The notes beneath the pieces were generated by a model. The model searched no databases and had not been told where the DNA came from. It saw only the letters and a list, made by a program, of their open reading frames with translations. DNA of 10,124 bases from Thermoplasmata archaeon. GTDB taxonomy: Archaea > Thermoplasmatota > Thermoplasmata > Lutacidiplasmatales > UBA184. The DNA lies in the NCBI GenBank assembly GCA_030043405.1, contig JASHXS010000038.1, positions 1 to 10,124 of the forward strand, read 5' to 3'. Of this stretch, positions 6,837 to 10,124 are shown one piece after another. A program made the position numbers and the translations under genes. How positions within the stretch are numbered: the stretch's first letter is position 1; each line of letters opens with the position of its first letter.

Positions 6837-7499
6837 ATGGCCGACACGCCCTGGGACCGGGTACATCGAGATGGCCGGGAGCTGTTTACCCCGAATCGGG
6901 GGCCCCCGGGCGACCGGGTCTACGGAGAGTCGCTCCGCACCTTCCACGGTGTCGAGTACCGGAACTGGGACCCGTTCCGATCGAAACTCGCCGCCCTGTT
7001 CGTCAAGGGAGGCGCGCTCGAGATCTGGACCGGCGCGGGCCGGACCCTGTACCTAGGCGGGGCCCACGGCACGACGGTCAGCCACCTCGCCGACCTAGTG
7101 GAACCGGCCCCGGTCTTCGCGATCGAGAAGAGCCCGACCTCCTTCGCCCCCCTCCTGGCGTTGGCGGGTCGCCGGTCGAATATCCTCCCGATCCTGGCGG
7201 ACGCGCAGCTCCCCGAACGGTACCGGGCCGACGTGGGCGAAGTGGACCTGATCTACCAGGACGTCGCCCAGCGCAACCAGGCCGCAATCTTCGTCGAGAA
7301 CGCGCGGACGATGCTCCGCCCCGGAGGTCGCGGCCTCCTCATGCTCAAGGTGCGGTCCGTGACCCAGCGCCGGCCGGCCCACGCGGTCGTGCGAGAGGCT
7401 CGCGCCGAGCTGACCGCGGGGGGCCTCGAGGTTCGTTCCGAGGTCGCCCTCGCTCCGTTCGCCCGGGACCACGTAGCCCTCGTCGCCGCGTTCACCTGA
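6837..7499 (+). CDS. flpA: Fibrillarin-like rRNA/tRNA 2'-O-methyltransferase
   Basis: This is the catalytic subunit of archaeal C/D-box sRNPs, which with Nop5, L7Ae and a guide RNA adds 2'-O-methyl groups to rRNA and tRNA from SAM. The 220-residue length is typical. The N-terminal block VYGESLRTFHGVEYRNWDPF (28-47) ends in RSKLAA. The SAM site is YLGGAHGTTVSHLADLV (72-88; usually GAASGTTVSH). Then come AIEKSP (95-100), NILPILADA (115-123), DLIYQDVAQRNQA (137-149), MLKVRSVT (169-176) and FARDHVAL (208-215). K171, D142 and the D211-H212 pair are the expected catalytic-type residues. Translation starts at ATG 6837, 5 bases after the RidA-family stop. nop5, often its neighbour in archaea, is not in the window. 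This gene is the main reason to call the DNA archaeal. Confidence 0.96.
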   Translation: MADTPWDRVHRDGRELFTPNRGPPGDRVYGESLRTFHGVEYRNWDPFRSKLAALFVKGGALEIWTGAGRTLYLGGAHGTTVSHLADLVEPAPVFAIEKSPTSFAPLLALAGRRSNILPILADAQLPERYRADVGEVDLIYQDVAQRNQAAIFVENARTMLRPGGRGLLMLKVRSVTQRRPAHAVVREARAELTAGGLEVRSEVALAPFARDHVALVAAFT

Positions 7500-7554
7500 G
7501 CCGCTCGGAACCGGCGTCCTCCATGTTCCACCGCCCGCCGGGCGGAGGCGGCCG

Positions 7555-7562
7555 AAATACCG
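7555..7562 (+). promoter_or_regulatory. AAATACCG promoter-like element before the surface protein
   Basis: AAATACCG lies 36 bases before ATG 7591 and follows a G/C-only stretch. It is identical to the octamer before cysH. As a TATA element it predicts transcription starting near 7582, giving a leader of about ten bases and no Shine-Dalgarno, as observed. Confidence 0.4.
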
Positions 7563-7590: not shown

Positions 7591-9795
7591 ATGGCGGGGC
7601 ACGGATGGAGGACGACGCTCGCCGCCGGACGGCCCCTTCCGGAGCTGGCGTTCGTCTTCGTCCTTCTGAGCGTGCCCACGGGCCTCGGGGTCACCTCCCC
7701 GGTCGCGGGGGTCGGGAGCGGGACCCACCTGTCGAGCGACACCGGACGGGCCGCTCCGGTGAATCTGAGCATCCAGGCCGCGTCGACCTGGGGCTGGGCC
7801 GACAATGGTACCGAGCTGTCGGCCGTGTGGTCGAGCCCCGACGACAGTTGCACCCTCACGCCCGGCTGGTTCCGATGGTCTGTCGCGCCCGGGCTGGTCT
7901 CGGGGTGGTTGAGCGACGCGAATCGCTCGGTCGTCAACTTCACGAGCACCACGGGAACGACCGGCAACGCCTCGGTTACGGTCCAGGGGTCCGTCTCGGT
8001 CTCGTGCGCGAACGGCACCTGGGCGCGGGTCGCGTCGGCCTCTCTCCCGTTGCTCGAGATCGCCCCCCTCACCCTGGGTCCGCTCTCGCTCGGCCCCGCC
8101 CCCGCCCCGGCCCAGTCGACCACCTATCTGAACGGCTCGTTGGACGGGGGTCTGCCGCCGTATCGCCTTTCCGTCGCATGGGGCAATGACACCTCTTCCG
8201 AACGAACACTGACCGAGCCGGGGCCGTTCTCGCTCCCCCACACCTTCCCGAGCGGCAAGTTCGCCCCGGTCGTCACGGTGACCGACGCGACCGGCGCGAA
8301 CCAGACCGCCGAAGTGCCGGAGTGGCTGAACGTCGGTCTCGTCCCGACCGGTACCATCCGGGCCTCGCTCCCGGTCGCCGAGGTCGGCCAGCCGGTCCAG
8401 TTCCAGCCGATCGTCTCCGGCTTGCTCCCCAACTCCTTCGAGCTCTTCTCCGGCTGCGGGGCCAACACGACCTCCGTGAACGGGACGGCCGCGCCGATCG
8501 TGTGCGACCCCACGCGCGCGGGCGACCTCGACCTCCGACTCGAGGCGTGTTCGAGCCCGGTCCTCCCGATGGCGTCCGACGTGCTCGAGGAACCAGTGCG
8601 GCCGGCCCTCTCCGCGTCGCTCGTGCCGGATCTCGCCGACGGGGAGGTGGGCTCGTCCTTCCCGATCGACCTTGGGATCGCGGGGGGCGTCCCCCCCTTC
8701 TCGGTCGAGTGGATGGCCAATGGGCTGTCCCAGCCCAGCCCACCGCTGATCCCGAACGACGGCTCGATCACGCTGAGCCTCGACCCGGCGGTGGCGGGCT
8801 TCGACCCGATCCAGCTCACGGTCGTGGACGCGGACGGAGCCCGCGCGTCGCTCACCAACGTGAGCGTGCATGCCGAACGTCCCCTCGACCTGACGGCCAC
8901 GGCGACCGTCACGAACGGTTCGGCGCCGGCCGGCCTGACCGTGCAGCTGGCCCTCGTCGGTGGGGTGGCACCGGTGGCCTGGGCCGCCACCACCGACTTC
9001 CCCTACGCCTCCGGTGCGCCGCCGAACGGCTGGACGGGGACGCCCGACGACGTGGCCTGGTCGGCCGACTCGTGGGTCGAGGGCGAGGGCAGCCTCTCGG
9101 TGGAGGTCCTCGATGCCGCGAATGCGGAGTTCGCGGTTTCGATGGTGGTCCACCTCGTCCCGCCCCTGACCGCCCAGCTCTCGCTGTGGCCCATGGACCG
9201 GGCCTCCCAAGCCGGACTGAACGCTACGGTGGCGATCTCGGGCGGAGTGCCTCCGTTTACGGTCTGGCTGAACAGTTCCGTCGGGGCGGCGTGGAACGGC
9301 ACACTCCTGCTCGACGGCGCCTGGCCGATCCAGCTACTGCTCCCGAACACGACGCCCGTTTCCGCGACGCTCGTGGTCCTGGATGCCGGCGGAACGAGGG
9401 CGGTGTCCGGCGGACAGGTGAGCTTCCCGCTCCCGCCGCCACCCGTGACACCGGTCCCCGCGCCCGACCCGTCCTCCGGGGGTGTCGCTCCCTGGCTGGC
9501 CGGGGGTGGGCTCGTCGGGGTCCTCGGAGCTCTCGGCGGTGTCGTGTTCTGGCGTCGCCGCCGGCGGCAGGCGCCCACTCCGCCCATGCCATCCCCGGAA
9601 CGGGTGTTGGAGGAGATCCTCGCCCCGTCCGATGGCGCGGAACGCCTGACGGTCGAATTGCTGGCCGAGGAGGCGGGGGTACCGTTGTCGACGGTGCGCT
9701 CCACCCTCACTCGCCTGATCGCCGAAGGCCAGGTCCGCTCCGAGATCACGTCGGAAGGCGAGGAGGTGCTCGCATGGGCCCACCTTCCCACCTGA
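7591..9795 (+). CDS. Large glycosylated-type surface protein with Ig/PKD-like modules, one membrane anchor and a cytoplasmic winged helix
   Basis: The 734-residue protein starts with a signal sequence or anchor (hydrophobic 17-34). A long ectodomain follows with repeated beta-sandwich-like modules. Their recurring turn is GG-hydrophobic-P-P/V-aromatic: GGLPPYRLSVAW (186-197), GGVPPFSVEW (365-374), GGVAPVAWAA (457-466) and GGVPPFTVWL (551-560). These often pair with a closing TVTDATG- or VVDADGA-like strand, as in PKD and other Ig-like domains. It has 17 N-x-S/T sequons between 58 and 588 and five cysteines (87, 139, 289, 305, 320). A Pro-rich stalk (613-628) leads to a membrane helix at about 631-654, then five arginines. 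Residues about 669-731 form a winged-helix-like domain (LTVELLAEEAGVPLSTVRST, then LTRLIAEGQVRSE and a wing). Topology is outside to cytosol. Sensing or adhesion coupled to regulation is inference. The start is ATG 7591; GTG 7579 would add four residues. Confidence 0.85.
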   Translation: MAGHGWRTTLAAGRPLPELAFVFVLLSVPTGLGVTSPVAGVGSGTHLSSDTGRAAPVNLSIQAASTWGWADNGTELSAVWSSPDDSCTLTPGWFRWSVAPGLVSGWLSDANRSVVNFTSTTGTTGNASVTVQGSVSVSCANGTWARVASASLPLLEIAPLTLGPLSLGPAPAPAQSTTYLNGSLDGGLPPYRLSVAWGNDTSSERTLTEPGPFSLPHTFPSGKFAPVVTVTDATGANQTAEVPEWLNVGLVPTGTIRASLPVAEVGQPVQFQPIVSGLLPNSFELFSGCGANTTSVNGTAAPIVCDPTRAGDLDLRLEACSSPVLPMASDVLEEPVRPALSASLVPDLADGEVGSSFPIDLGIAGGVPPFSVEWMANGLSQPSPPLIPNDGSITLSLDPAVAGFDPIQLTVVDADGARASLTNVSVHAERPLDLTATATVTNGSAPAGLTVQLALVGGVAPVAWAATTDFPYASGAPPNGWTGTPDDVAWSADSWVEGEGSLSVEVLDAANAEFAVSMVVHLVPPLTAQLSLWPMDRASQAGLNATVAISGGVPPFTVWLNSSVGAAWNGTLLLDGAWPIQLLLPNTTPVSATLVVLDAGGTRAVSGGQVSFPLPPPPVTPVPAPDPSSGGVAPWLAGGGLVGVLGALGGVVFWRRRRRQAPTPPMPSPERVLEEILAPSDGAERLTVELLAEEAGVPLSTVRSTLTRLIAEGQVRSEITSEGEEVLAWAHLPT
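9761..9768 (+). promoter_or_regulatory. Strong ribosome binding site inside the end of the surface-protein gene
   Basis: AGGAGGTG ends 5 bases before ATG 9774. It is the best Shine-Dalgarno in the window and fits translational coupling of the last two genes. Confidence 0.75.
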
Positions 9796-10124
9796 ACCGG
9801 GTTCGCGCCCTCGGCCCGACCGGGGCGATCGTCGGGGCCCTCCTCGCCGGGCTGCTCCTCGCTTCGCCCGGAGCGCTTGGGCAGAGCTCCCACGCGGCGC
9901 CGGTGGTACGGCCGGTGGGGACCGTGGCTCCGGGGAACTCGTCGGCGGTCGCCAACTTCACCGCCTCCCTGAATCGGATGGTCGAACTGCTCGGACTGGC
10001 GGGGAGTGGGATCCTCGCGCTCGTGTGGGCGCGGGTCGCGCTCAGCTGGTTCTCGAACGACGTGACGAAGAAAGTCCAGGCCAAGGACCGGGCGCGCGAC
10101 GCCCTGATCGGCACGCTCCTCTTC
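9774..10124 (+). CDS. Small secreted/membrane protein with VirB2/TrbC/CedA1-like layout (cut by right window edge)
   Basis: The first 117 residues are present and the frame is open at the window edge. A signal peptide is clear: basic start (R9, R11), hydrophobic 16-31 and a likely cleavage after ALG36. A short Ala/Ser-rich mature N-terminus follows. Then come a hydrophobic helix at about 69-93 (VELLGLAGSGILALVWARVA), a short basic loop (SNDVTKKVQAKDRARD, 94-109), and the start of a second hydrophobic helix (ALIGTLLF) as the window ends. Signal peptide, helix, short charged loop, helix is the layout of VirB2/TrbC conjugative pilins and of archaeal CedA1/TedC-type pilins. No specific residue proves homology, so the family is inference. 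The gene overlaps the surface-protein gene by 22 bases in another frame, with a strong ribosome binding site, so the two are translationally coupled. Confidence 0.8.
   Translation, partial: MGPPSHLNRVRALGPTGAIVGALLAGLLLASPGALGQSSHAAPVVRPVGTVAPGNSSAVANFTASLNRMVELLGLAGSGILALVWARVALSWFSNDVTKKVQAKDRARDALIGTLLF

Follow-up and report, generated by a model that had tools for sequence, protein, structure and literature searches.

Archaea import DNA through conjugation-related machines such as Ced and Ted. To our knowledge, how machines of the Ced/Ted type recognise a partner and start is an open question. ToxR and CadC combine an extracytoplasmic domain, one membrane helix and a cytoplasmic winged helix, with the DNA-binding domain at the cytoplasmic N-terminus and the outer domain at the C-terminus; membrane-anchored winged-helix proteins exist in archaea too. 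Adhesins of the PrgB type, which we liken to the protein described here by description only, are surface proteins that go with the T4SS of monoderm, Gram-positive cells, and PrgB is not known to have a cytoplasmic winged helix. The covered part of PMC12102498 names PrgB as an adhesin. Ced (Sulfolobales) and Ted (Thermoproteales) are chromosomal DNA-import systems with a pilin-like protein, a polytopic VirB6/CedA-like protein and a VirB4-like ATPase; the covered parts of PMC9905601 and PMC11868833 mention no winged-helix receptor. In Cuniculiplasma (Thermoplasmatales), from the archaeal class studied here, VirB4 and membrane-protein genes are likewise clustered, and the covered part of PMC5155288 names neither a surface receptor nor a winged-helix tail among these T4SS genes. 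No receptor with a winged-helix tail is described in the open-access literature covered, which comprised parts of the above sources on Ced/Ted, Cuniculiplasma and the T4SS of Patescibacteria (PMC12102498), a T4SS review (PMC12857230), and papers on the pili (PMC4858521) and the dark matter (PMC4158269) of archaea.

The stretch of DNA analysed here (the window; 10,124 nucleotides, the entire contig 102 of a Thermoplasmata genome that is 56% complete) encodes such a protein, called the receptor below (Table 1). The preliminary description of this DNA had read from the sequence an export signal, a roughly 590-residue Ig/PKD-like ectodomain, a Pro-rich stalk, one membrane helix, five Arg residues and a winged-helix tail. 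The ORF indeed translates in this way: an N-terminal hydrophobic core is followed by the ectodomain, the stalk, the single helix, Arg5 and a tail of 75 residues. An alternative start is possible at GTG 7579. The homologue search that had been proposed gave 25 homologues that align along the receptor at 22 to 39% identity. By hydropathy, the N-terminal hydrophobic core is present in all 24 homologues checked; the remainder of the 29 loci are soluble forms or lack the N-terminus.

Table 1. Coordinates of the receptor locus in the window
Feature	Position	Strand	Basis or remark
Fibrillarin-like methyltransferase	6858..7499	+	Conserved left neighbour of the operon
TATA-like box GAAATACC, putative operon promoter	7554..7561	+	Starts 37 bases before the receptor ATG
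Receptor gene, 734 aa	7591..9795	+	ORF translation and homologues
Export signal	7591..7692	+	Hydropathy; hydrophobic core at residues 19-32
Ectodomain (Ig/PKD-like modules) and Pro-rich stalk	7693..9486	+	Module matches in homologues
Membrane helix, residues ~636-654	9496..9552	+	Comparison of loci
Arg5 stop-transfer, residues 655-659	9553..9567	+	Positive charge following the helix
Acidic winged-helix tail, residues 668-729	9592..9777	+	Profile matches, hhalign, charge
B2, small membrane protein, T4SS-pilin/VirB2-like	9774..10124	+	Cut by the contig end; overlaps the receptor stop

The ectodomain, of about 600 residues, is built from modules that in 26 homologues match SprB (five), PKD (four), Big_9, Big_6 and Ig_3 (two each) at E ≤ 0.01. 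Its identity to the window is 24 to 37%, versus 59 to 78% for the neighbouring fibrillarin gene, and it evolves fastest among the parts compared, being less conserved than fibrillarin, the tail, B2, B6 and VirB4. Receptors with a complete N-terminus have 552 to 753 residues in the loci of the genus, the open frames in other genera of the family 589 to 1861, and receptor frames overall from about 550 to 2307. A variable ectodomain joined to a kept tail fits a recognition domain outside the cell and a functional module inside. A second surface protein of the window's genome, on contig 158 (G000:C158; L002-L005), has similar ectodomain modules. It ends 28 residues past an Arg4 and carries no winged-helix tail, in agreement with the earlier remark that ordinary surface proteins stop soon after the helix.

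For topology we compared 29 loci, 27 of which are membrane-anchored. The side following the helix is net positive in all 27, and its charge exceeds that of the preceding side in 26, with L042 equal. Positive charge after the helix places the tail inside the cell; this supports a single-pass surface protein with a cytoplasmic C-terminus, as proposed at the outset, and the pattern in the 27 membrane forms contradicts a C-terminus outside. The helix-turn-helix lies where it had been read, at residues 687-711. Residues 682-717 match the Pfam models HTH_IclR, GntR, HTH_24 and MarR_2, with TrmB also placed there. HTH_IclR scores 24.1 bits with the tail alone, which passes the cut-off of 22, and 19.6 within the whole protein, which is below it. 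Among the 29 homologues, the tail matches DUF5817_CT in 23, Rrf2 in 15 and EutK_C in 14 at E ≤ 0.1. When compared by hhalign (single-pair E-values) with 18 ordinary HTH_24 domains, drawn from a set of 30 ordinary winged helices, the tail alignment (A1) gave prob 90 and the alignment of tails including other genera (A11) prob 94. A PDB profile search with the tail was only marginal, the best hit being the repressor NsrR at E = 0.014. Taken by profile comparison (prob 90 to 94), the tail is thus supported as a winged helix, and the contrary outcome, some other fold, did not occur. The tail also has weak matches at other places in the genus (E 1e-4 to 1e-2); the five examined all look like HMG-CoA reductase by their sequence features and were set aside as chance.

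The preliminary description stood in its account of architecture, topology and tail, and missed the operon context, most of which lies past the end of the window. The receptor gene heads an operon, in which it is followed by a pilin-like protein (B2), a polytopic VirB6/CedA-like protein (B6), a basic membrane protein (B3) and a VirB4 ATPase. The surrounding gene order is seen in the locus of Thermoplasmata archaeon WH2.bin150 (L006) and in other relatives. A DUF885 peptidase, a zinc-ribbon protein, a RidA-like protein and fibrillarin lie to the left of the receptor. To the right come B2, B6, B3, a small membrane protein that was detected in only part of the loci, VirB4, one more protein and an N6/N4 DNA methylase. 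The methylase (13137-13991 in L006; also in relatives) is conserved on the right flank of the operon, in the opposite orientation. Apart from receptor losses, relatives keep the order fibrillarin, receptor, B2, B6, B3, VirB4 up to the ends of their contigs. In the window, B2 probably starts at ATG 9774, within the last 22 bases of the receptor gene, and is cut off because the window is the whole contig; the fragment is 86% identical over 63 aa to its L006 homologue. With script-assigned start codons, the receptor stop overlaps the B2 start in 14 of 16 loci. Compared with Ced and Ted as described in the literature covered, the Thermoplasmata operon adds a winged-helix receptor, a basic membrane protein and often a small membrane protein.

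The identity of VirB4 is firm by profile comparison: it matches PDB 4ag5 at E = 5e-28 and DUF87 above its cut-off, while its matches to the NCBIfam VirB4 models (1.5e-34 at best) fall short of the cut-offs. The pilin label of B2 comes through homologues only, to which the window's B2 family is linked by alignment A7. The B2 homologue of L068, from the family taken here as Aciduliprofundaceae (as are L143-L147), scores 34.3 bits against T4SS_pilin (PF18895; cut-off 26.6); the B2 of L075, from another family, scores 22.9, below that cut-off. No pilin model matched the L006 B2 or the window's fragment, the L006 B2 matched nothing in Pfam, and B2 had no PDB match. B6 and B3 matched no known family and no PDB chain in profile searches, which argues against the machine assignment; they are labelled by position and hydropathy. 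Six to eight hydrophobic peaks are present in all six B6 sequences examined (of 16) and its position fits VirB6/CedA, so that the likeness to CedA is one of position and hydropathy, with no match by sequence. The covered part of PMC11868833 describes archaea as having no VirB3 and VirB8 homologues. The mean net charge of B3 is +12 (15 sequences), and that of the N-terminal 180 residues of VirB4 is +5 (13 sequences). Matches resembling TraG/VirD4 occur in 35 of the 78 genus genomes at E ≤ 0.001, 19 of them above the family cut-off and the best at 28 bits; among the matches listed, only G063 has any on the contig of the receptor operon, the nearer at a distance of more than 15 kb.

A tail match at E ≤ 1.2e-10 is present in 59 of 78 genus genomes, and B6 at E ≤ 0.001 in 61. 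In 54 of the 59, B6 follows 384 to 468 bases downstream, on the same strand as the tail. The window's tail and the four remaining strong tails stop no further than 352 bases from a contig end, too close for B6 to lie on the contig. Because 25 homologues align lengthwise and 59 of 78 genomes carry the tail, the receptor architecture is more than chance. Six of the 61 genomes with B6 lack a strong tail match: G009 and G012, which have short fragments, G071, and G004, G019 and G073, which have no receptor gene and in which fibrillarin is followed directly by B2. Since these last three keep B6, the receptor is not needed everywhere. In receptor-less G073, VirB4 is split into two overlapping frames (L087, 8523-10615), and the DNA-transfer-like machine may be decaying there. 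Three genomes (G002, G064 and G029) have only a soluble winged helix of 86 to 98 residues at the receptor's place; between G002 and G064, dN is 0.023 and dS 0.207, indicating purifying selection. Within the family, alignment A8 matches at E ≤ 1e-4 in 52 of 61 genomes and 7 of 7 genera, eight non-genus genomes matching by construction as their rows are in A8, and G068 and G120 matching only near the 1e-4 limit. Class-wide, B6 occurs in 34 of 200 genomes. The operon layout is common to other genera of the family and Aciduliprofundaceae, and the receptor is a conserved component of this Thermoplasmata type IV operon. The G237 and G169 loci have no recognisable receptor tail; in G169, the surface-protein frame before B6 ends shortly past its helix, which speaks against the machine assignment. 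In five loci of one other family of the class (L071-L075), taken here as Thermoplasmatales, B2, B6 and VirB4 have no receptor beside them; this family seems to include cultured species, in which a Ced-like system could be studied.

The preliminary description had suggested that a single protein might link the cell surface to DNA or to a partner protein. The net charge of the 62-residue tail domain is below zero in every one of the 29 homologues (from -11 to -2, mean -7.4), and all eight tails from other genera of the family are negative too. In contrast, the mean is +2.8 (range -5 to +8) for 30 ordinary winged helices of related genomes, taken from 64 such matches and including one shorter stretch whose charge was scaled to length; because the homologues share descent, the p-value of this comparison overstates independence. 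The residues kept in 26 to 29 of the 29 tails are A692, E693, E694 and G696 in the second helix, which carries the conserved LLAEE, and G723, E725 and W729 in the wing, which ends in a conserved Trp. The exposed recognition-helix positions 699-701 and 704 are variable across the 29 tails. Judged by whole-domain charge and column entropy rather than a mapped surface, the tail does not show the basic domain with conserved recognition helix of a DNA-binding transcription factor, and it probably does not read DNA. Together with the lack of a shared upstream operator (see below), these features go against the path to DNA; the fallback offered at the time, that the domain acts only in protein-protein contact, fits them better.

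We consider it somewhat better than an even chance that the receptor is the contact receptor or adhesin of a chromosomal, Ced/Ted-like type IV DNA-transfer machine, on which the acidic tail docks by protein contact. What the sequences show is the architecture, the winged-helix homology by profile, the topology signals, the operon position and the conservation; from there we infer DNA transfer, contact sensing, docking and the docking partner. The fast-evolving ectodomain would project outside and recognise another cell or its surface, and the single helix would anchor the receptor beside the VirB6-like channel and the pilin-like subunit, as the operon suggests. The acidic cytoplasmic winged helix would dock on a machine protein at the inner face and, once docked, signal contact or recruit the motor. 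Judged by charge alone, the partner would most likely be B3 or the N-terminal 180 residues of VirB4. Three observations weigh against docking: four of the 30 ordinary winged helices sit at -4 or below, basic tail residues are kept (R703 in 18, R708 in 24 and R716 in 26 of 29), and the soluble winged helices that stand alone, at -2 and -5, rank with the least acidic tails. If the docking reading is right, contact sensing in archaeal DNA exchange becomes directly testable, with a candidate receptor that lies in the machine's own operon, has a defined cytoplasmic domain, is kept across a Thermoplasmata family and is present in Aciduliprofundaceae; it would also be an example of a winged helix that has apparently given up DNA binding in favour of protein contact.

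The receptor could instead be a membrane-anchored one-component regulator of the ToxR/CadC kind, with an ectodomain that detects a signal and a tail that binds DNA from its place at the membrane and switches the DNA-transfer operon. We regard this as unlikely. The tail is homologous to winged-helix transcription factors, R708 and R716 are conserved, soluble stand-alone winged helices survive in three genomes with one pair under purifying selection, and the receptor heads the operon behind a promoter-like box, all as such a regulator would have it. However, the tail is acidic in all homologues and its recognition-helix positions vary; compared with ToxR and CadC, the domain order is reversed and the acidic tail is tied to a secretion-like operon. 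The box GAAATACC, an 8-mer picked from these same data, is complete in 4 of 23 loci, one of them the window's, and keeps at least 7 of its letters in 10 of 23 versus 8 of 1150 shuffled regions (L006, with masked bases, counted as a miss), yet degenerate forms are visible by eye in genomes that have no receptor gene. The operator search covered inverted repeats upstream of the receptor operon and revealed no shared operator: across 31 upstream regions the longest repeats have a mean arm of 5.7 bases, versus 5.2 in shuffles, and no arm sequence is common to more than two regions. A CGTTCAYCGTTC-like element just past the fibrillarin stop matches as a regular expression in 8 of the 31, the window's excluded. 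An autoregulation operator was rejected, as this element is absent from the window, the box persists in degenerate form where the receptor is lost, and the repeats barely exceed shuffles.

Rather less probable is a plain adhesin whose winged helix does not signal and serves for structural anchoring or for dimerisation, in an operon for protein transport or pilus assembly instead of DNA movement. The fast evolution of the ectodomain and the wide span of receptor lengths suit an adhesin, and VirB4 machines do move proteins as well as DNA. Three genomes, however, keep the winged helix without ectodomain or membrane helix, and because this stand-alone form survives, the winged helix has a role apart from anchoring. 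More speculatively, and in our estimate improbable, the acidic winged helix might act as a DNA mimic that plugs a basic DNA path of the transfer motor, in B3 or at the N-terminus of VirB4, as long as the ectodomain has not met a suitable partner cell; the receptor would then be a contact-operated gate for DNA exchange. Least probable, given a net charge that averages -7, is a tail that catches incoming or outgoing DNA non-specifically where the channel opens on the inside of the cell; its place in a DNA-transfer-like operon and, in 2 of 29 tails, a weak match to the DprA winged helix speak for this reading.

Aciduliprofundaceae, which has cultured members, offers a more distant comparison. In L068, a surface protein of 745 residues, which has a membrane helix and a tail resembling the receptor's, is followed by several B2 copies, B6, B3 and VirB4. 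Among six frames examined that bear such a tail, B2 is the next gene found in L068 and L143-L146, none was found beside L147, and the run extends as far as VirB4 in L068, L143 and L146. By itself, the Aciduliprofundum tail gave no match (prob 1.9, and 0.3 against ordinary winged helices); its prob of 94 against A8 was discarded as circular because A8 includes that tail. With the Aciduliprofundaceae tails aligned (A10), A11 reached prob 62 (E = 7e-5, colinear over 57 columns) and A1 prob 35. A10 did not match ordinary winged helices (prob 2.8), and the Pfam winged-helix model F-93_WHD was matched at 1.7e-4 by two of its six members. These comparisons are suggestive of homology between the Aciduliprofundaceae tail and that of the window's family.

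Two further observations concern neighbouring genes. In the window, a row of genes at positions 393-2924 looks, by reading alone, like PAPS reductase, ATP sulfurylase and APS kinase, an assimilatory sulfate cluster. In L068, five B2-like frames lie in a row (8829-13703), most with long N-terminal domains and three rich in Gly, Trp and Ser; these are possibly decorated pilins.
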